Below are positions 43,509-51,867 of a stretch of 64,000 nt of DNA, in pieces. Source of the DNA: Streptomyces halstedii (GTDB taxonomy: Bacteria > Actinomycetota > Actinomycetes > Streptomycetales > Streptomycetaceae). The stretch covers positions 285,997 through 349,996 of the forward strand of contig JOAZ01000007.1 of NCBI GenBank assembly GCA_000720535.1. The letters are read 5' to 3'. The notes under the pieces were generated by a model. The model saw nothing but the letters and a program-made list of their open reading frames with translations, was not told where the DNA came from and made no database searches. The translations under genes were made by a program, and so were the position numbers. Each line of letters opens with the position of its first letter. The stretch's first letter is position 1.

Positions 43509-43565
43509 CCCGTCGCTTCCGCACCGTTTCGACCGTTGTCGGTGCGAGGACCTAATCTGTGCAAC

Positions 43566-45092
43566 GTGACTTCGCCTGCCGACACCCACACCGCTGCGCC
43601 GCAGCTCAGCGCGGGGCCGCGGCCCGCCCCGGGCCCGGCCGCCGACGAGGGGCTCTCACGTCGGCTGCGCGCGCTCGCCTGCACCGCCCCGCTGCACGAC
43701 CTCGACGCGCGCAAGGCGAATCTGGCCGGCGCCTACACGGTGTACGCGATGGCCGAAGTCGCCCTGGCCGCCATCGACCTCGTCACCCTCAACATGGACT
43801 TCGACACCGGGGCCGACCACGACCAGATAGTGGCCAGACTGCTGCCCAGGATCGCCGCCCAGGCACCGGACCGCTCCGACACCGAGCACGAGCGCGTCGC
43901 CCGCTGGGTCCTGGAGAACCTGATCAACGTCGGCAGTGTGGACCGGGGCTTCCGCGCGGTGTACGGCACCTTCGGACCCGACGGCGTCTACATCCGCCGG
44001 GACTACGACTTCAAGCTCGTCGAGGAGGTCCCCGGACACGGCGGCAGCGTCTACCTCCGCACCACCGACGAAGCGGTCAACGTCCTGGTCGGCGCCCTGG
44101 ACACCGATGTCACCAGCGCCCAGATCGCCGCCGAGGTGAAGTTGGAGGTCCTCATCAGCCGGGGCCGCCTCGCCGACGCCCAGCTCGCCGCCGAACAGGC
44201 CCGCTACCGCACCGTCCAGTACGCGGAGACGCTCCGCAGGACCCTGGAGGCGACCCGGCGCAACGTCCGCGCCGTCGACTGGCTCAACGCCGTCCCCGAC
44301 ATGATCGCCGAAGCGCTCGACCACGTCGCCGACCGCTACCGCCACGAGAACGCGATCCTCACCAACATCCGCAAGGCCAGGGACGAGGCGGAGGAGCCCG
44401 AGCACAAGCGGCGCGCCGCCGAACTCGTCGACATCGTGAAGGACTGCATCCGCCGCCACACCCAGCTCCAGTCCCGGCTGCTGGAGGCCGGCCCGCTCTT
44501 CCGCGCCGAACAGGACCGCCAGGCCTTCGCCCCGCCCACCGCGCACGCGGGCCTCGACCTGTACGGACAGCTCCTCGCCCCCCTGCTGCCGCTCCCCGTC
44601 GACCAGGCCACCCGGGCCACCGACGCCTTCTTCACCCACGGCACCGGACTGCGCACCCCCGTCTCCGTGCGCGTCGGCGACCTCGTCGAGATGCTGCTCA
44701 CCCCCCCGGTCGAACGGGAACACCTGGGCGCCGAGATGCCCGAGCCCGACCTCATCGCCACCCCCGACGACAGCAGGTTCAGCGAGGAGCAGCTCGCCCA
44801 CGCCATGGAGCTGCTCGACCTGGACCACGACGTGCCCCGCCGGCTCTCCGGACTGCTGGCCGAGGCCCGGCTCCGCGACCCCGACCTGCCCTACCTGGTC
44901 GCCCTGCTCGCGGTCCACGCGGCGAGCCCGCCGGTCGGCACCGCCTACCGCCAGGGCGAGCGCAGACTGCTCTTCGCGGTCGACGACGGCACACCGCTCG
45001 ACGACCACGAGTTCGGCGGCGCCGACCTGATAGTGGGCACCGCCCTGCTGGACGCCGCGGGCATGGCCGCCGACCGCAAGGACGCCTCGTGA
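43566..45092 (+). CDS. Subunit A of an SMC-like three-gene system (MukF/JetA-like candidate)
   Basis: A 508-aa soluble, mostly helical protein of no family I can name. The helical N-terminal part (about 25-110) looks like a winged-helix/dimerisation region, followed by YDFKLVEEVPGHGGSVYLRTTDEAVNVLVGAL (about 150-180). A long charged helical stretch spans about 190-330 (AAEVKLEVLISRG..., RRTLEATRRNVRAV). A C-terminal helical domain (about 340-490) contains SRFSEEQLAHAMELLDLDHDVPRRLSGLL. Size, order and helix content resemble the kleisin-like first subunit of MukBEF/Mks/Wadjet complexes. TAATCT ends 7 nt before the GTG, so a leaderless transcript probably starts here. Function is inferred from context only. 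Confidence 0.6.
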   Translation: MTSPADTHTAAPQLSAGPRPAPGPAADEGLSRRLRALACTAPLHDLDARKANLAGAYTVYAMAEVALAAIDLVTLNMDFDTGADHDQIVARLLPRIAAQAPDRSDTEHERVARWVLENLINVGSVDRGFRAVYGTFGPDGVYIRRDYDFKLVEEVPGHGGSVYLRTTDEAVNVLVGALDTDVTSAQIAAEVKLEVLISRGRLADAQLAAEQARYRTVQYAETLRRTLEATRRNVRAVDWLNAVPDMIAEALDHVADRYRHENAILTNIRKARDEAEEPEHKRRAAELVDIVKDCIRRHTQLQSRLLEAGPLFRAEQDRQAFAPPTAHAGLDLYGQLLAPLLPLPVDQATRATDAFFTHGTGLRTPVSVRVGDLVEMLLTPPVEREHLGAEMPEPDLIATPDDSRFSEEQLAHAMELLDLDHDVPRRLSGLLAEARLRDPDLPYLVALLAVHAASPPVGTAYRQGERRLLFAVDDGTPLDDHEFGGADLIVGTALLDAAGMAADRKDAS

Positions 45093-45165
45093 GCGCGCCC
45101 GGTCCAGGCCACCGCCGCCGGCCGCACCGAGAGAGCGGCACCACCCGTACCGAGGAGCCACCGCA

Positions 45166-46077
45166 GTGACCGAGCCGTACGCCGAGCCCACCGACGCGTG
45201 GGGGGACCCGCAGCCCGCGTACCCGGCGGAGACCGTCCCGCAGACCGCACCCACGGCCGTCACCCCCGCGGACGCGGCCGACGCCGCCCGGCTGGTCTCC
45301 TACGGACTCCAGCCCAAGCTGATGCCGGCCCGCGACGCCGAGTACGCCGGACTCCTGCGCCGCTACCGCGAGGAGCCCCCCTTCGCCCGGCTCGCCGACG
45401 CCGTCGCCACCGGACTCGGCCTCGTCGTCCTGGAGGTATCCACCCGCGCCGGAATGGCCGTCACCGCGGCCGAGGACTCCGTCTTCGCCGTACGCATGGG
45501 CGACTACGCCCGGCGGGCCTCCTCCGACACCGCCGACCGCTTCCTGCACGGGCTGGCCCACCTCGCCGTCGCCGCCATGGCCTTCCCCCGGCCCGAGGAC
45601 CTCGCCGACGACGCCTACATCGGCCGCATCACGGTCAACGGGGTGGACGCCTTCGTCCGCCAGGCCTGCCACCGGCTGGAGGAGCGCGCCGAGCGGGAGG
45701 GCGACAACACCGACCCGGCCACCGACAGCCCCGGCCTGGAATCGGGCTGGCGCGTCTACGCCCGCCGCAGCTCCACCGGAGCCACGAAGGACGCCAGACG
45801 GCTCGCCGGATCCACCACCGGCATCATCGGCAAGGCCGCCGCCTTCCTCGCCGACTCCGGCTTCCTCCAGCGCACCGGCGACGACGCGGGCGGCACCTAC
45901 CGCACCACCGCCCGCTACCAGCTCCAGGTCCGCGACATGGCGGGCGGTGCCGCCATGGCCGAACTGCTGGAGCTCGGCGTCGTCCCCGTCACCGACGGGT
46001 CGGCCACCCTGCTGCCCCCGCCCGACGCGGACGGCCTGGAGCTGGCCGCCGACGCCGGTCTGCCCTTCCACTCCTGA
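45166..46077 (+). CDS. Subunit B of the SMC-like system (MukE/KITE-like candidate)
   Basis: A 303-aa protein with a disordered acidic start (about 1-45) and two winged-helix-like segments. The first is at about 105-175 (AVAAMAFPRPEDLADDAYIGRITVNGVDAFVRQAC). The second is at about 195-265 (KDARRLAGSTTGIIGKAAAFLADSGFLQRTGDDAGGTYRTTARYQL), where a short beta wing follows helix 3. Tandem winged helices are what MukE/ScpB/JetB (KITE) subunits have. The start is GTG with GAGGAG upstream. It lies 73 bp after subunit A and 78 bp before the ATPase gene in the same direction. The homology is a structural guess. Confidence 0.55.
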   Translation: MTEPYAEPTDAWGDPQPAYPAETVPQTAPTAVTPADAADAARLVSYGLQPKLMPARDAEYAGLLRRYREEPPFARLADAVATGLGLVVLEVSTRAGMAVTAAEDSVFAVRMGDYARRASSDTADRFLHGLAHLAVAAMAFPRPEDLADDAYIGRITVNGVDAFVRQACHRLEERAEREGDNTDPATDSPGLESGWRVYARRSSTGATKDARRLAGSTTGIIGKAAAFLADSGFLQRTGDDAGGTYRTTARYQLQVRDMAGGAAMAELLELGVVPVTDGSATLLPPPDADGLELAADAGLPFHS

Positions 46078-46155
46078 CCCGCCCCCGCCGAACCGCCCCG
46101 CGTACGCCGACGGCGCCGTTGCCGTCCGCTGCCTGAACGACGAGAGTCCGCCGCC

Positions 46156-49100
46156 ATGTACGAGTTGTCCCGGGTCCGCCTCTACTCCATCGGACCCGCC
46201 GGCGCGCGCTACGCCGACACCGTGCTCGATCTGCGCGGGGTCGGGGAACCTGTCCCCGACCCCGCCCCGGCGCAGGCGGAGTTCTTCGAGGAGGAGCCGG
46301 CCGGACCGCCCCGGCGCCCGGCACCCGCGGGCGTGCTCTTCCTGGAGAACGGCGGCGGCAAGTCCGTCCTGCTCAAGCTGATCTTCTCGGTGATGCTGCC
46401 CGGCCACCGCAACACCCTGGGCGGCGCCAGCTCCGGCGTCCTGCGCAAGTTCCTGCTCGCCGACGACTGCGGACACGTCGCCCTGGAGTGGCAGCACACG
46501 CTCACCGGCGAGTGCGTCGTCGTCGGCAAGGTCAGCGAGTGGCGCGGACGCCAGGTCTCCAACGACCCGCGCAAGTTCGCCGAGGCCTGGTACTCCTTCC
46601 GCCCCGGCCCCGGACTCAGCCTCGACAACCTGCCCGTCGCCGAGGCCACCTCGGTGGGCCGCCCGGCCGAGGGCGCCTCCGGGGCCCAGGGCAGGCGCCG
46701 CACCATGAAGGGCTTCCGTGACGCCCTGACGGACGCCGGCAAGTTCTACCAGCACCTCGACGTGTACTGGGAGGAGATCCACGACCGCTGGAACGAACAC
46801 CTCGGCGACCTCGGCCTGGACCCCGAACTCTTCCGCTACCAGCGCGAGATGAACGCCGACGAGGGCGAGGCGGCCGGCCTCTTCGCGGTCAAGAAGGACT
46901 CCGACTTCACCGACCTGCTGCTGCGGGCCGTCACCGACACCCGCGACACCGACGGCCTCGCCGACCTCGTCAGCGGCTTCGGCAACAAGCTCGGCCGACG
47001 CGCCGAACTCACCGCCGAGCGCGACTTCACCGCCGGATCCGTCGATCTGCTGGGCCGGATCGTCGAGGCCACCGCGACCAGGGCCCGCAGCCGCGACGTC
47101 CACACCGCCGCCGAACGCCGCGCCCGCACCCTCGCCCGCAGGCTCTTCGCCCGCGCCACCGAGGAACGCGGCCGCACCGCGGAACTCGCCGAGCAGGTCA
47201 CCGCCGCCGCCCACACCGTCACCTCGGCCGACACCGCCCGCGGCCACCGCGACCTGGTCGCCGCCGAACTCGCCTACCGGCACGCCTCACTCGCCCTCGC
47301 GGCGGCGGAGAAGGGCGCGGCCGCCCAGCGCCGCGAGCTGGGTGACGCCCGCACCCTGCACGCCGCCTGGCAGGCCGCCGAAGCGGTCCTGCGCCACCGG
47401 GCCGCCGCCGACCGCTCCGCCAGGGTCGCCGTCGCCATCCGCGAGGCCGAACGGGACGCCGCCCCCGCGCTCGCCGCCCGCGCCACCGCCGCCGCCGACC
47501 TCGTACGCGCCCTGCACACCGCCGCCGAGCGGGGCGAGCGCGTGGCCGAGGAGGAAGAGGAGCGCTCGGCCACCCTCCAGACGACCGGCGAGGTGGCCCA
47601 CCGCGACGCCACCACCGCCGCCACCGAGGCGCAGCGCGCCCGCAGCGAGGCCGGACACCTCCGTCAGCGCCTCACCGAGGTCGAACAGGAGACCGCCGAG
47701 GCCGTCCGGGCCGGCTGGCTCGACGACACCGCGCCCGACGCCGACCCCGCGCGCGCGGCCCTCGCCGCGAACGACGCGGAGCAGGCCGCGGTCGCCGCCT
47801 GGGACACCGCGAGGGACGCGGCCAGGACCACCGCCGACCACGCGAGGGAGTCGGCGGCGGCCGAGAGCCGCGCCGAACTCGCCGCCGCCCGCGCCGCCGA
47901 CGCCGCCCGCGCCGCCGAGCAGTCCTACGAGGCCGAACGCAGGGCCGCCGACTCGATCGCCGCAGACCCGCGCCTCGCGGACCTGCTGGGCACGCCGGTG
48001 GGCGGGGGCGTACCCCACCCGCGCAGGGCGGCCGGCGAGGAGGCACCCGCCGCACCGGGGAGCGCGCAGCCGCTCACCGCCGAGGAACTCGACCACAGCG
48101 CCGACGAACTGCGCGAACTGCTCGACCAGGGCGTCGCCGGCGCCGAACGCAGGCTCTTCGACCTGCGCACCGCGGCCGCCGACGACTCCCGCATCCTCGG
48201 CGCCCTCGGCGACGGCGGACTGCTGCCGCCGGGCCCCGACGTCCTCGCCACCGTCGAATACCTCGGCGAACACGGCATCCCGGCCCTGCCGGGCTGGCGC
48301 TACCTCGCCCAGGCCGTCCCACCCGCCGACCACGCGGCCGTACTCGCGGCCCGCCCCGAGCTGGTCGACGGCGTCGTCATCACCGACCCCGACGCGCACA
48401 CCCGCGCCCGCGAGGTGCTCGGCACCGCCGCCCTGCTGCCCCGCTCCGCCGTGGCCGTCGGGACCACCGCCGCCCTCCTCGCCCCCGTCCCGGCCGGCGG
48501 CGCCCTGGACGGGGACGGCGTCTTCCTGGTCCCGCCGAACCCGGCGATGCACGACGAACACGCCGCCGACGAGGAGCGGCAGGAGCTCAGGGCCCGCGCG
48601 GCCGCGCGCGACGAGGACATCAGGACCCTCGCGGCCCGGCTCGGCGCCGACCGCGCCCTCGCGGCCCGGATCGGCTCCTGGCGCGCCGACTGCCCGCCCG
48701 GCATGCTCACCGAGCTGCGGGAGGCCGCCCACACCGCGCGTACGGCCGCCGAGAGCGCCCAGGGCACGCTCGCCGAGGCCCGCACCGTCCGGGCCGAGGC
48801 CGACGAGGCCGCGGCCGACGCCGCACGGGTCCGCGACGAGCGGCAGGAGGCCGCCCAGCGCGCCCGCCGCACCGCCGACGCGCTCGCCGGCCTCGCCCAC
48901 CGCCTCCGCGACCGGGCCGCCTGGCAGGCCAGGCTCCGGGAACTCACCGACGAGGCGGCCGAGTCCGAGGCGCGCGCCGCCGCGTGCCTGGACCGGGCCC
49001 GCGCCGCCGACGAGGACCGCAGGGCCGCCCAGCGGGCGGCGGACGACGCCCACCGCACGGCCCGCGCCCTGCGCGCCGAACGCGCCGAGATCGCGGGCGC

Positions 49101-50865
49101 CCCGGAGTCCCTTCCGGAACCCTCCGCCGACGGCGCCCGGACCTCGCTGCCCGCCCTGCGCGAGGCCTACCGGGCCGCCTCCCAGCTGTACGAGAAGGTC
49201 GGCGTCGGCGCCGACCTGCGCGCCGAACAGGCCCGCGCGGAGAGCGACGAGAGCGCCGCCCTGGCCGAGCTGGACCGCCTCACCAACAAGGTCCGCACCC
49301 GCGCCGCCACCCTCCTGGAAGGCACCGACGGAGCCGACGGCCCGTCCCGGCAGGCCGCGGCGGCCCGCGCCGAGTCCCTCGTCCACCTGCTGGAGACCCG
49401 GGCCTCCACGGCCAGCGAGCAACTGGGCCGGCTGCGCGGCGAAGCCGAGCGGCTCGCCCCGGCCGACGGCGAACCCCACCACACCGAGCTGCCCGACGAC
49501 CTCGTCCCGGTCGACGCGGACCAGGCGCAGAACCTCCTGCGCGCCGCGACCGCCGAACTCGCCTGTGCCACCGACGCCCTGGACACCGCCCGCGCCGCCC
49601 ACGCCCAGTTCCTCCGCGCCCACCGCACCGCGGAGGAGTCGGCCGGCGGCTTCGAGGAGACCGCCGCGCTCCTGCGCGACCTGCTCAGGGACCACGCGCC
49701 CGACGAGGAGACCGAGACACCCGAGCCCTACCCCGGGACCCTCGACGAGGCCAGGCAGTCCGCCGCCGAGGCACGGCGCTCCCTGCGCGGCTGTGCCGCC
49801 GACCTCTCGGCGGCCGAGTCCTCCGTGCGCGAGGCGAGCGACGTCCTCGTACGGCACGCCAACTCCACCCGCTACGAACAGGTCCGCACCCCGGCCCGCC
49901 AGCAGATCCGGGAACTCCCGGCCGCCGCCCTGCCGGACCACGCCGAGAAGTGGGCCGCCGCCTTCGCCCCCCGGCTCCGGGTGCTCACCGACGAACTGAC
50001 CCAGCTGGAGCGCAACCGCGACTCGATCGTCGACCGGCTCCGGGGCCTGGTGGAGTCCGCGCTCGCCACCCTGCGCTCCGCCCAGCGGCTCTCCCGGCTG
50101 CCCGAAGGGCTGGGGGAGTGGTCGGGGCAGGAGTTCCTCCGTATCCGCTTCGAGGAACCCGACCAGGCCACCCTCACCGAACGGCTCGGCGAGGTCATCG
50201 ACGCGGCCACGCACGCCGCCCTCAAGAAGAACTCCGACCTGCGCAGGGACGGCATGTCCCTGCTGCTGCGCGGAGTCGAGGCGGCGCTGCGGCCCAAGGG
50301 CATCGCGGTCGAGATCCTCAAGCCGGACGCGGTGCTCCGCGCCCAGCGGGTGCCCGTGGGACAGATGGGAGACGTCTTCTCCGGCGGCCAGCTGCTCACC
50401 GCGGCCATCGCGCTGTACTGCACCATGGCCGCCCTGCGCGGCAACGACCGGGGCCGCGACCGGCACCGCCACGCCGGGACCCTCTTCCTCGACAACCCCA
50501 TCGGCCGCGCCAACGCCACCTACCTGCTGGAGCTCCAGCGCGCCGTCGCCGACGCGCTCGGCGTCCAGCTGCTGTACACGACGGGGCTCTTCGACACCAC
50601 GGCGCTCGCCGAGTTCCCCCTCGTCATCCGGCTGCGCAACGACGCGGACCTGCGGGCGGGGCTCAAGTACATCAGCGTCGAGGAACACCTGCGGCCGGGC
50701 CTTCCGCAGCAGGACCCCGGAGGGGAGACGGTCCACGGGGAGATCACCGCGACCCGGATGTTCAAGCGGGCCGCCCCGGCCGACGGGACGCCGGACGCGG
50801 TGCCCGTCCCGGAGACCCGCCCGGCGACCGGCACCCGCCCGTCACCGGACCCGCTGGGACGCTGA
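46156..50865 (+). CDS. Large SMC/MukB-like coiled-coil ATPase (subunit C)
   Basis: A 1569-aa ABC-type ATPase with split heads. N-terminal head about 1-240: Walker A ENGGGKS (64-70). Very long Ala/Arg/Glu-rich coiled coil about 260-620 and 810-1380. Between them is a globular hinge-like insert about 620-800 (ALGDGGLLPPGPDVLATVEYLGEHGIPALPGW). C-terminal head: signature FSGGQ at 1408-1412 and Walker B LFLDNP with Asp1446 followed by Asn1447, where SMC and ABC ATPases usually have the catalytic Glu. The layout is that of MukB, MksB and Wadjet JetC. Last gene of an A-B-C operon. No JetD-like nuclease follows. Likely DNA-loop extrusion or foreign-DNA restriction; not demonstrable here. Confidence 0.75.
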   Translation: MYELSRVRLYSIGPAGARYADTVLDLRGVGEPVPDPAPAQAEFFEEEPAGPPRRPAPAGVLFLENGGGKSVLLKLIFSVMLPGHRNTLGGASSGVLRKFLLADDCGHVALEWQHTLTGECVVVGKVSEWRGRQVSNDPRKFAEAWYSFRPGPGLSLDNLPVAEATSVGRPAEGASGAQGRRRTMKGFRDALTDAGKFYQHLDVYWEEIHDRWNEHLGDLGLDPELFRYQREMNADEGEAAGLFAVKKDSDFTDLLLRAVTDTRDTDGLADLVSGFGNKLGRRAELTAERDFTAGSVDLLGRIVEATATRARSRDVHTAAERRARTLARRLFARATEERGRTAELAEQVTAAAHTVTSADTARGHRDLVAAELAYRHASLALAAAEKGAAAQRRELGDARTLHAAWQAAEAVLRHRAAADRSARVAVAIREAERDAAPALAARATAAADLVRALHTAAERGERVAEEEEERSATLQTTGEVAHRDATTAATEAQRARSEAGHLRQRLTEVEQETAEAVRAGWLDDTAPDADPARAALAANDAEQAAVAAWDTARDAARTTADHARESAAAESRAELAAARAADAARAAEQSYEAERRAADSIAADPRLADLLGTPVGGGVPHPRRAAGEEAPAAPGSAQPLTAEELDHSADELRELLDQGVAGAERRLFDLRTAAADDSRILGALGDGGLLPPGPDVLATVEYLGEHGIPALPGWRYLAQAVPPADHAAVLAARPELVDGVVITDPDAHTRAREVLGTAALLPRSAVAVGTTAALLAPVPAGGALDGDGVFLVPPNPAMHDEHAADEERQELRARAAARDEDIRTLAARLGADRALAARIGSWRADCPPGMLTELREAAHTARTAAESAQGTLAEARTVRAEADEAAADAARVRDERQEAAQRARRTADALAGLAHRLRDRAAWQARLRELTDEAAESEARAAACLDRARAADEDRRAAQRAADDAHRTARALRAERAEIAGAPESLPEPSADGARTSLPALREAYRAASQLYEKVGVGADLRAEQARAESDESAALAELDRLTNKVRTRAATLLEGTDGADGPSRQAAAARAESLVHLLETRASTASEQLGRLRGEAERLAPADGEPHHTELPDDLVPVDADQAQNLLRAATAELACATDALDTARAAHAQFLRAHRTAEESAGGFEETAALLRDLLRDHAPDEETETPEPYPGTLDEARQSAAEARRSLRGCAADLSAAESSVREASDVLVRHANSTRYEQVRTPARQQIRELPAAALPDHAEKWAAAFAPRLRVLTDELTQLERNRDSIVDRLRGLVESALATLRSAQRLSRLPEGLGEWSGQEFLRIRFEEPDQATLTERLGEVIDAATHAALKKNSDLRRDGMSLLLRGVEAALRPKGIAVEILKPDAVLRAQRVPVGQMGDVFSGGQLLTAAIALYCTMAALRGNDRGRDRHRHAGTLFLDNPIGRANATYLLELQRAVADALGVQLLYTTGLFDTTALAEFPLVIRLRNDADLRAGLKYISVEEHLRPGLPQQDPGGETVHGEITATRMFKRAAPADGTPDAVPVPETRPATGTRPSPDPLGR

Positions 50866-50937: not shown

Positions 50938-51390
50938 TCAGGCCTGGGAGAGACCGCCCGCGCCCCGGCGGCGTATTCGCGCGTCCCGGCGGGCCTGGGA
51001 CCGGGCCGCGCTCCGGGCCCTGCGCCGCTCGCGCCGCATACGGCGCGCCGTGCTGCTCGGCACGGAGACCACGCCGTGCCGCTGGTTCCACACCTGCCGG
51101 GTCACCCACACGTCCAGCACCGACCAGGTGGCGACCACCGTGCTGGCCACCCCGCTGAGCACCATGGGGAAGGCCAGCCACGAGCCCGCCAGCGTGCACA
51201 GGAAGGCCACCACGGCCTGGACCAGCGTCACCGACATGATGAGCACCGCCCGCACCGCGGCCGTACGCACCGGATCCGGCATCCGCCGCCGTGTCGCGGG
51301 CTCTTCCACCCACAGCCGCTGCCTGGGAATCCGGGCGCCGCCCGCCGCCGCGGCCGCCGCCGGCACACCCCGTTGTTCATCCGTCCTCAC
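50938..51390 (-). CDS. Conserved hypothetical membrane protein
   Basis: A 150-aa protein with two hydrophobic helices (about 44-66 and 70-92; VLIMSVTLVQAVVAFLCTLAGSW, FPMVLSGVASTVVATWSVLDVW) and a very basic C-terminal tail (RRMRRERRRARSAARSQARRD). The N-terminus is Ala-rich and polar. It is convergent with the SMC-like operon, ending 72 bp from its stop, so it is not part of that operon. I do not recognise the family; the basic tail could contact nucleic acid or lipid. Confidence 0.65.
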   Translation of the reverse strand: MRTDEQRGVPAAAAAAGGARIPRQRLWVEEPATRRRMPDPVRTAAVRAVLIMSVTLVQAVVAFLCTLAGSWLAFPMVLSGVASTVVATWSVLDVWVTRQVWNQRHGVVSVPSSTARRMRRERRRARSAARSQARRDARIRRRGAGGLSQA

Positions 51391-51867
51391 GGACCCTCAA
51401 CTCCCCTCCGCCGTACGACCCAAGGGGTGGCTGCCCGGTGTGTGCCCGGTCCACGCCGGCGGACCACACCGGCGTGCGCACCATCCCCCGTACGGTCGTC
51501 TGCCCCCGTACAGCTGGACGAACGCCGGTGCGTGAAGATTCCCGCCGAACGCCCTCAATCAGACCCGAAAGCCTACAGAACGAAGACTTCCAGCCAACCG
51601 CCCGGGGTGCGCATGTGCGCCGTGGCCCCGCTGCCCGTGTCACACTTCGCGAACTTCTTCGCCGGTTATACCAGGACAACTGGTGATCAACACCGGAAAG
51701 AGGGGCTGAAATTCGACCGGACGCGTCTTCGAGTTGTCCGCGTGTCAGTAGTAGGCTCGCGCCGTTTGTTGACGGAAGACCGATGGACGTCCGGCGGGAT
51801 CACCGCCGAAGGACCGGAAACACCGACACGACCACCCCCGCGGCGCGGGGTCGAGCTGGGGGAGGCC
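51391..51867 (+). promoter_or_regulatory. 477-bp region upstream of the conservon
   Basis: No gene is supported. TAGGCT at about 51755 is a plausible -10 box some 110 bp before cvnA, with only poor -35 candidates. A small palindrome ACCAG/CTGGT lies at about 51670. The divergent hypothetical membrane protein must also be transcribed from this region. Confidence 0.3.

Follow-up and report, generated by a model that had tools for sequence, protein, structure and literature searches.

A JetD-less branch of the Wadjet type III motor in Streptomycetaceae and its possible role as a second condensin

We analysed a 64,000-nucleotide stretch of Streptomyces halstedii DNA (contig JOAZ01000007.1, positions 285,997 to 349,996; hereafter the window), and found three consecutive plus-strand open reading frames (ORFs), here called genes A, B and C. 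They almost certainly encode a JetD-less branch of the Wadjet type III motor JetABC, a branch that is near-universal in Streptomycetaceae. We lean towards the reading that this motor has turned into a second chromosomal condensin, a role that is inferred, and like the one proposed for MksBEF of Pseudomonas. The initial annotation of the window had suggested an undescribed actinobacterial condensin. This possibility is retained, as is the description of a linked SMC-like operon at a conserved chromosomal locus with no nuclease subunit, but the trio does not stand outside Wadjet.

Proteins A and C are Wadjet type III subunits

Against the PADLOC models, protein A matched JetA3 (PDLC00567) with 622 bits over residues 24-505 of 508, and protein C matched JetC3 (PDLC00588) with 1403 bits. 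Thus, an unrelated new system was ruled out, and the trio was assigned to the Wadjet III JetABC motor without its nuclease. Since JetD is not encoded with JetABC, the trio is not filed as a Wadjet system. The initial annotation had set it apart from Wadjet type II, a comparison that missed the membership of A and C in the type III family.

We also considered a canonical SMC as the identity of C and rejected it. C matched no NCBIfam family at E values up to 1, TIGR02168 included, and the canonical SMC of this genome is a separate gene on another contig (C27; TIGR02168, 907.5 bits). The TIGR02168 search of the genome, in which 47 of 77 first-look candidates were scored, gave no match on C7, the contig of the window. 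The best of three SbcC-like matches in the genome (L001) reads as SbcC by eye. All three trio proteins gave noise only against Pfam and NCBIfam. A sequence search of the PDB with A, B and C returned coiled-coil, ABC-ATPase, designed-protein and other low-scoring chains. Chains of MukF, MukE, MukB or Jet proteins were not among them, and one of the coiled-coil matches for C (E 0.025) was to a fragment of canonical SMC.

The motifs and region identities of C were taken from an alignment of 49 JetC3 proteins. C has SMC-type ATPase heads, in which Walker A and the ABC signature are conserved and Walker B lacks the usual Glu. These motifs are conserved in all 21 Streptomycetaceae rows, and also in the core group of a second actinomycete family (f85). 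The Asn after the Walker B Asp (LDNP) was found in 49/49 type III JetC proteins, with or without JetD; 10/10 type I JetC proteins, and MukB, have Glu (DE) at the same place. The catalytic base of the type III ATPases may lie elsewhere. The conserved middle part of C is likely the hinge, judging from its position.

The initial annotation had described A as probably kleisin-like and B as tandem winged-helix-like. Both are probable subunits, but a kleisin fold of A and a KITE fold of B are suggested rather than shown, since the AlphaFold models of the two proteins have low confidence scores, probably because their alignment was limited to Streptomyces sequences. Foldseek with these models gave no match at E 0.001; for A, the chains ranking first in the PDB, short of that threshold, were those of MukBEF and MukEF. 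B of the window matched no model in Pfam, NCBIfam or PADLOC, and neither did B of two JetD-carrying operons (L116, L181). B is 39-53% identical to B of eight JetD-carrying operons from Streptomycetaceae and f85.

The core trio is linked, widespread and not accompanied by JetD

The three-gene operon was found as first annotated, with gaps of 73 and 78 bases between its genes in the window and of 31-325 bases in 11 relatives. A and B adjoin C on the same strand in 70/70 Streptomyces relatives with full flanks, so that the order and linkage of the genes are not due to chance; a frequent unlinked distribution was not seen in these loci.

The absence of a JetD-type gene, noticed at first in the window, extends to the whole genome (7.74 Mb, estimated as 100% complete), which has no match to the JetD_C domain (PF09983) or to PADLOC JetD3 (PDLC00594). 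A DUF2399 search (PF09664) also gave no match there, which shows little, as the same search matched in no control genome. Among 80 Streptomyces loci found via C, A was present in 76, B in 77 and JetD in none, and in 78 of these loci the sequence extends 1.5 kb or more past C. In six further genera of Streptomycetaceae, eight loci (L187-L194) likewise contain A, B and C, with JetD in 0/8.

We then compared the distribution of the two subunits. JetA3 was matched in 198/200 Streptomycetaceae genomes (193/194 of the good assemblies, 17/17 genera), where these counts, like those below, are JetA3 matches rather than proven core copies and a few are partial. JetD was matched in 24/200 genomes by PF09983 and in 24/200 by PDLC00594, with a union of 30/200; the other 170, including that of the window, matched neither model. 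In the class, JetA3 was found in 52/345 genomes, of which 33 belong to the genus of the window, 18 to f85 and one is a weak match. It was found in 19 of 35 f85 genomes, and in 13 of 296 genomes of the phylum (nine of the genus of the window, the window's own genome included).

Where JetD was found linked, it adjoined a divergent trio and not the core trio. We read 16 JetD places (12 and those of G193, G441, G458 and G304), and 13 of them hold A, B, C and D in order as intact ORFs. The incomplete ones end at a contig edge (G388), have A split (G392) or hold only a piece of C (G367). The closer JetD-carrying operons of the family are 48-59% identical to the window in A and 36-39% in C, and operons of the L116 type are 35-37% identical in A. 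One genome (G193) carries both kinds. Its core copy (L117) has a C that is 82% identical to that of the window and an adjoining conservon, and its full ABCD operon (L116) has a G+C content of 66%, two transposase genes upstream, and overlaps between A and B and between C and D.

JetD-less copies form separate clades among JetD-carrying systems

We constructed trees of A (55 rows) and of the heads of C (49 rows), both unrooted and drawn with midpoint roots. The family is represented by 13 Streptomyces-type core loci (the window, 11 of the 80 and L117) and eight of other genera. Three incomplete or broken JetD-carrying copies (L179, L183, L186) were left out of both trees, and four loci with a C that is short, absent or cut by a contig end (L224, L226, L229, L237) were left out of the C tree. 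L120 and L121 are in the A tree only, as unlabelled rows. The f85 core loci number 14, and in four of them (L226, L230, L234, L237) there is hardly any or no sequence past C.

The JetD-less copies of Streptomycetaceae form one clade, with support of 98/93 in the A tree and 100/100 in the C tree. Those of f85 form a separate clade (100/100 and 100/99). Both clades sit among JetD-carrying systems, and the most distant rows of both trees carry JetD. The JetD label needs two changes on each tree, and an approximately unbiased test on the C heads was compatible with a single joint JetD-less clade (p 0.41) without demonstrating it. The probable history is thus one loss of JetD or two, the alternative being several gains.

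Tip branches of core copies are mostly 0.01-0.2 changes per column. JetD-carrying copies mostly have tips of 0.2-0.9, and four distant ones exceed this range by far; the core copies were sampled more densely, which explains part of the difference. Over 12 comparisons, the core trio gave a ratio of nonsynonymous to synonymous substitution (dN/dS, Nei-Gojobori) of 0.10-0.30; it is constrained, as are the JetD-carrying copies. One out-of-frame pair of JetD-carrying C genes is excluded from the dN/dS values.

A second chromosomal condensin as the favoured role

Several observations point towards a condensin: the JetA3 and JetC3 profile matches, JetA3 in 198 and JetD in 30 of the 200 genomes, no JetD at the 80 and eight core loci, separate ABCD operons with a divergent A, the core clade, the dN/dS values, a canonical SMC in the same genome and the Pseudomonas precedent. 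We propose that A, B and C would form the Wadjet III motor, in which an ATPase dimer of C is closed by the kleisin A carrying the KITE protein B. The nuclease JetD would have been lost in an ancestor of Streptomycetaceae, and the motor kept as a housekeeping condensin of the MukBEF/MksBEF kind, working alongside SMC-ScpAB on the chromosome of the host. Judging from the homologous JetABC and MukBEF, C would dimerise at its hinge, A would bridge the heads and B would ride on A, while ATP would drive loop extrusion by the complex. With JetD missing, no gene of the operon would cut DNA, so that the chromosome may be what the motor works on, like MksBEF of Pseudomonas, with folding that is probably of shorter range than that by SMC and complementary to it. 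Ring assembly, loop extrusion and action on the chromosome are what we infer, not what we observed.

This arrangement resembles known systems in part. The core trio shares JetA3, JetC3 and the gene order with Wadjet type III, but it lacks JetD and sits at one conserved locus, whereas JetD-carrying copies are sporadic; its genes are separated by gaps, unlike the overlapping genes of L116, and its tips are shorter, partly through sampling. With MksBEF of Pseudomonas aeruginosa and enterobacterial MukBEF it shares a linked three-gene plan of kleisin, KITE and SMC-like protein (the first two as candidate labels) without a nuclease. However, it belongs to another lineage, as profile-profile comparison matched C to type I JetC with a probability of 94.8% and to MukB with 39.8%, and A and B gave no significant match to MukF and MukE. 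The Wadjet complexes MksBEFG and EptABCD of Corynebacterium and Mycobacterium are also MukBEF-like and found in actinobacteria beside SMC-ScpAB, but they keep the nuclease MksG. SMC-ScpAB of Streptomyces has the same SMC-kleisin-KITE architecture in the same cells, but its SMC is the separate gene on contig C27 described above.

In the literature, cited here from the parts consulted, SMC is treated as the condensin of Streptomyces (PMC13121528, PMC8410768). In S. venezuelae, an smc deletion led to more contacts below 200 kb and to a loss of arm alignment, a result that the authors interpreted as an additional role of SMC (PMC8410768). As an alternative, these contacts may hint at another loop extruder at that range. 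A survey of actinobacterial defence reported Wadjet in 42% of Actinobacteria, located towards the chromosome ends in Streptomyces, and the part consulted does not treat JetD-less trios (PMC10482375). In literature other than subscription papers and preprints, we searched for Wadjet, Muk- or Mks-type and condensin complexes of Streptomyces and for Wadjet systems that have lost JetD; among the matches listed, no title or opening of an abstract describes such a complex.

A number of points weigh against a condensin role. The related MksBEFG of Corynebacterium glutamicum, which keeps its nuclease, targets plasmids and takes no part in chromosome folding (PMC7083940). JetA3 is patchy in f85 (19/35), unlike a vital condensin, and G304, the only genome seen of its genus and one of the 198, has only a divergent copy, beside JetD. 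The dN/dS of four JetD-carrying pairs (0.20-0.29) differs little from that of the core copies, so that the core copy is not distinguished by purifying selection as such. The low-confidence fold models of A and B count here too, as does hhalign, which gave no significant match of A and B to type I JetA and JetB or to single MukF and MukE sequences.

We weighed four other explanations. The trio could still be a defence system that extrudes and entraps foreign circular DNA or phage DNA so as to silence it uncut, in the way that Smc5/6 acts on viral circles, or that hands the DNA to an unrelated host nuclease. Its closest JetD-carrying relatives are Wadjet III operons, Wadjet acts on plasmids, and Streptomyces meets many plasmids and integrative elements. 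However, 170 of the 200 genomes lack a JetD match, JetA3 is near-universal in the family whereas JetD is patchy (30/200), and the core neighbours are conserved, with no mobile-element family in the eight flanking ORFs of the window, in contrast to the two transposase genes upstream of the JetD-carrying copy in G193. We consider a defence role rather unlikely.

A more specialised role, in compaction or segregation at sporulation, at the ends of the linear chromosome or on conjugating DNA, would replace general folding. The locus lies beside the conservon cvn4, and the S. coelicolor orthologue of its convergent neighbour, SCO1403 (orthology by way of a shared 25-base ScbR site, below), is an interaction partner of PkaI that was also found in earlier screens of the spore-wall complex (PMC4416010). 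But this neighbour is convergent, lies outside the operon and has no functional link to the trio, and the f85 loci, with flanks of a few kb, lack these neighbours. We regard such a role as unlikely.

It is very improbable that the trio is older than the nuclease, with the core trio as the ancestral condensin and JetD gained by other lineages. The trees are unrooted and counts of changes alone cannot separate gain from loss, but the most distant branches (L118, L119, L232, L241) all carry JetD, and gain would have to be repeated several times. JetD together with JetABC also marks Wadjet types I and II. Finally, it is scarcely credible that the trio is a decaying remnant of a Wadjet III island which has survived by chance: the nuclease is gone and such systems seem to decay elsewhere (L121 of G279, below), but the ATPase motifs are conserved in 21/21 rows, dN/dS is 0.10-0.30 and JetA3 persists in 198/200 genomes.

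Returning to the condensin reading, we regard as evenly balanced the fuller proposition that Streptomycetaceae gained a second, near-universal chromosomal condensin from an anti-plasmid Wadjet III system by loss of the nuclease, and that the same conversion was repeated or shared in another actinomycete family. If true, this would parallel, in actinobacteria, the origin proposed for MukBEF/MksBEF, and some of the folding of hyphal and spore chromosomes that is at present attributed solely to SMC would belong to a second complex. Studies of how chromosomes fold in linear, multigenomic hyphae use Streptomyces as a main model, and a second SMC-like complex, with its kleisin-like gene in 198/200 genomes of the family, is apparently undescribed in the literature searched. 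It would also allow the nuclease-free and the nuclease-bearing form of the JetABC motor to be compared within a single family, and in G193 within a single genome, and so test directly whether MukBEF-type condensins evolved from defence systems. A survey that took JetA or JetC by itself as Wadjet would call nearly every Streptomycetaceae genome positive.

The locus and its neighbours

The features of the locus are listed in Table 1.

Table 1. Features of the trio and its surroundings, in window coordinates
Feature	Position	Strand	Description
Conserved upstream element	43536-43558	+	TTGTC(A/G)-N11-TA(A/G/C)TCT; ends 7 bases before the GTG of gene A
Gene A	43566-45092	+	508 amino acids (aa), GTG start; JetA3, MukF-like kleisin candidate
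Gene B	45166-46077	+	303 aa, GTG start; JetB-like winged-helix protein, KITE candidate
Gene C	46156-50865	+	1569 aa, ATG start; JetC3, SMC-like ATPase with long coiled coils
Walker A of C	46345-46365	+	ENGGGKS (LENGGGKS with the preceding Leu), residues 64-70, near the start of C (LENGGGKSVLLKLIFS); alignment of 49 C proteins
Putative hinge of C	48193-48555	+	residues ~680-800; better conserved than both flanking stretches
ABC signature of C	50377-50391	+	FSGGQ (FSGGQLLTAAI), residues 1408-1412; from the same 49-row alignment
Walker B-like motif of C	50482-50499	+	LFLDNP (LFLDNPIG), residues 1443-1448; Asn in place of the usual Glu
Small gene, SCO1403 orthologue	about 50938-51390	-	convergent with C; no Pfam family
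ScbR/ScbR2 site	51747-51771		exact 25-base copy, matching the S. coelicolor site of PMC4595836

The element upstream of gene A stands in register before the start of A in 17 of 18 upstream stretches (the window and 17 relatives), with departures of one or two bases in four of them (L033, L047, L058, L076). In L019, the called start of A falls further upstream, inside the element. A sigma-70 scan of the upstream stretch gave no match. The element is a possible promoter of a leaderless transcript.

Upstream of the trio lies a hydantoinase/oxoprolinase gene, by Pfam. Beyond the small convergent gene lies a conservon of a NIT-domain sensor kinase, a Roadblock/LC7 protein, a small protein and an ATP-binding protein. 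Eight flanking ORFs (35274-57497) matched no mobile-element or defence family of Pfam, and three of the eight matched nothing. In eight chromosomes with the locus on one large contig (L004, L012, L030, L040, G023, G128, G171, G193), the core copy lies ~0.45-1.8 Mb from the nearer record end.

In S. coelicolor, a 25-base ScbR/ScbR2 site lies between sco1402 (cvnA4) and sco1403, the latter tabulated as a 'putative membrane protein' (PMC4595836). The exact copy of this site in the window identifies the conservon as cvn4 and the small convergent gene as the SCO1403 orthologue. By position, the trio should correspond to SCO1404 (C), SCO1405 (B) and SCO1406 (A). We found no mention of SCO1404-SCO1407 in the same scope of literature. 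Given the site, the conservon beside the trio may be under gamma-butyrolactone control here too.

The oxoprolinase gene, the SCO1403 orthologue and cvnA are present in 50, 81 and 77 of 89 Streptomycetaceae loci. None of the three was found in the 14 f85 loci, where the flanks reach only a few kb, and the f85 loci partly share neighbours among themselves. With none of these three neighbours in common, the orthology of the Streptomycetaceae and f85 trios is to be judged from the trees alone.

Other relatives of the trio

The phage collection held no relative of B, and IMG/VR held one close relative of A, on one contig, and none of B or C. L183 (G392:C3:231000-245000) is a JetD-carrying Wadjet III copy in which gene A is divided over two ORFs. 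L121 (G279:C21:1214000-1233000) has a JetA3 and JetB-like pair followed by a JetC3 that matches only in its first ~285 residues, and no JetD; it looks like what is left of a decayed type III system, in an actinobacterium distant from Streptomyces. JetA3 was also found on plasmids in four records (one Rhodococcus, three Streptomyces), 28-32% identical to JetA of L116.

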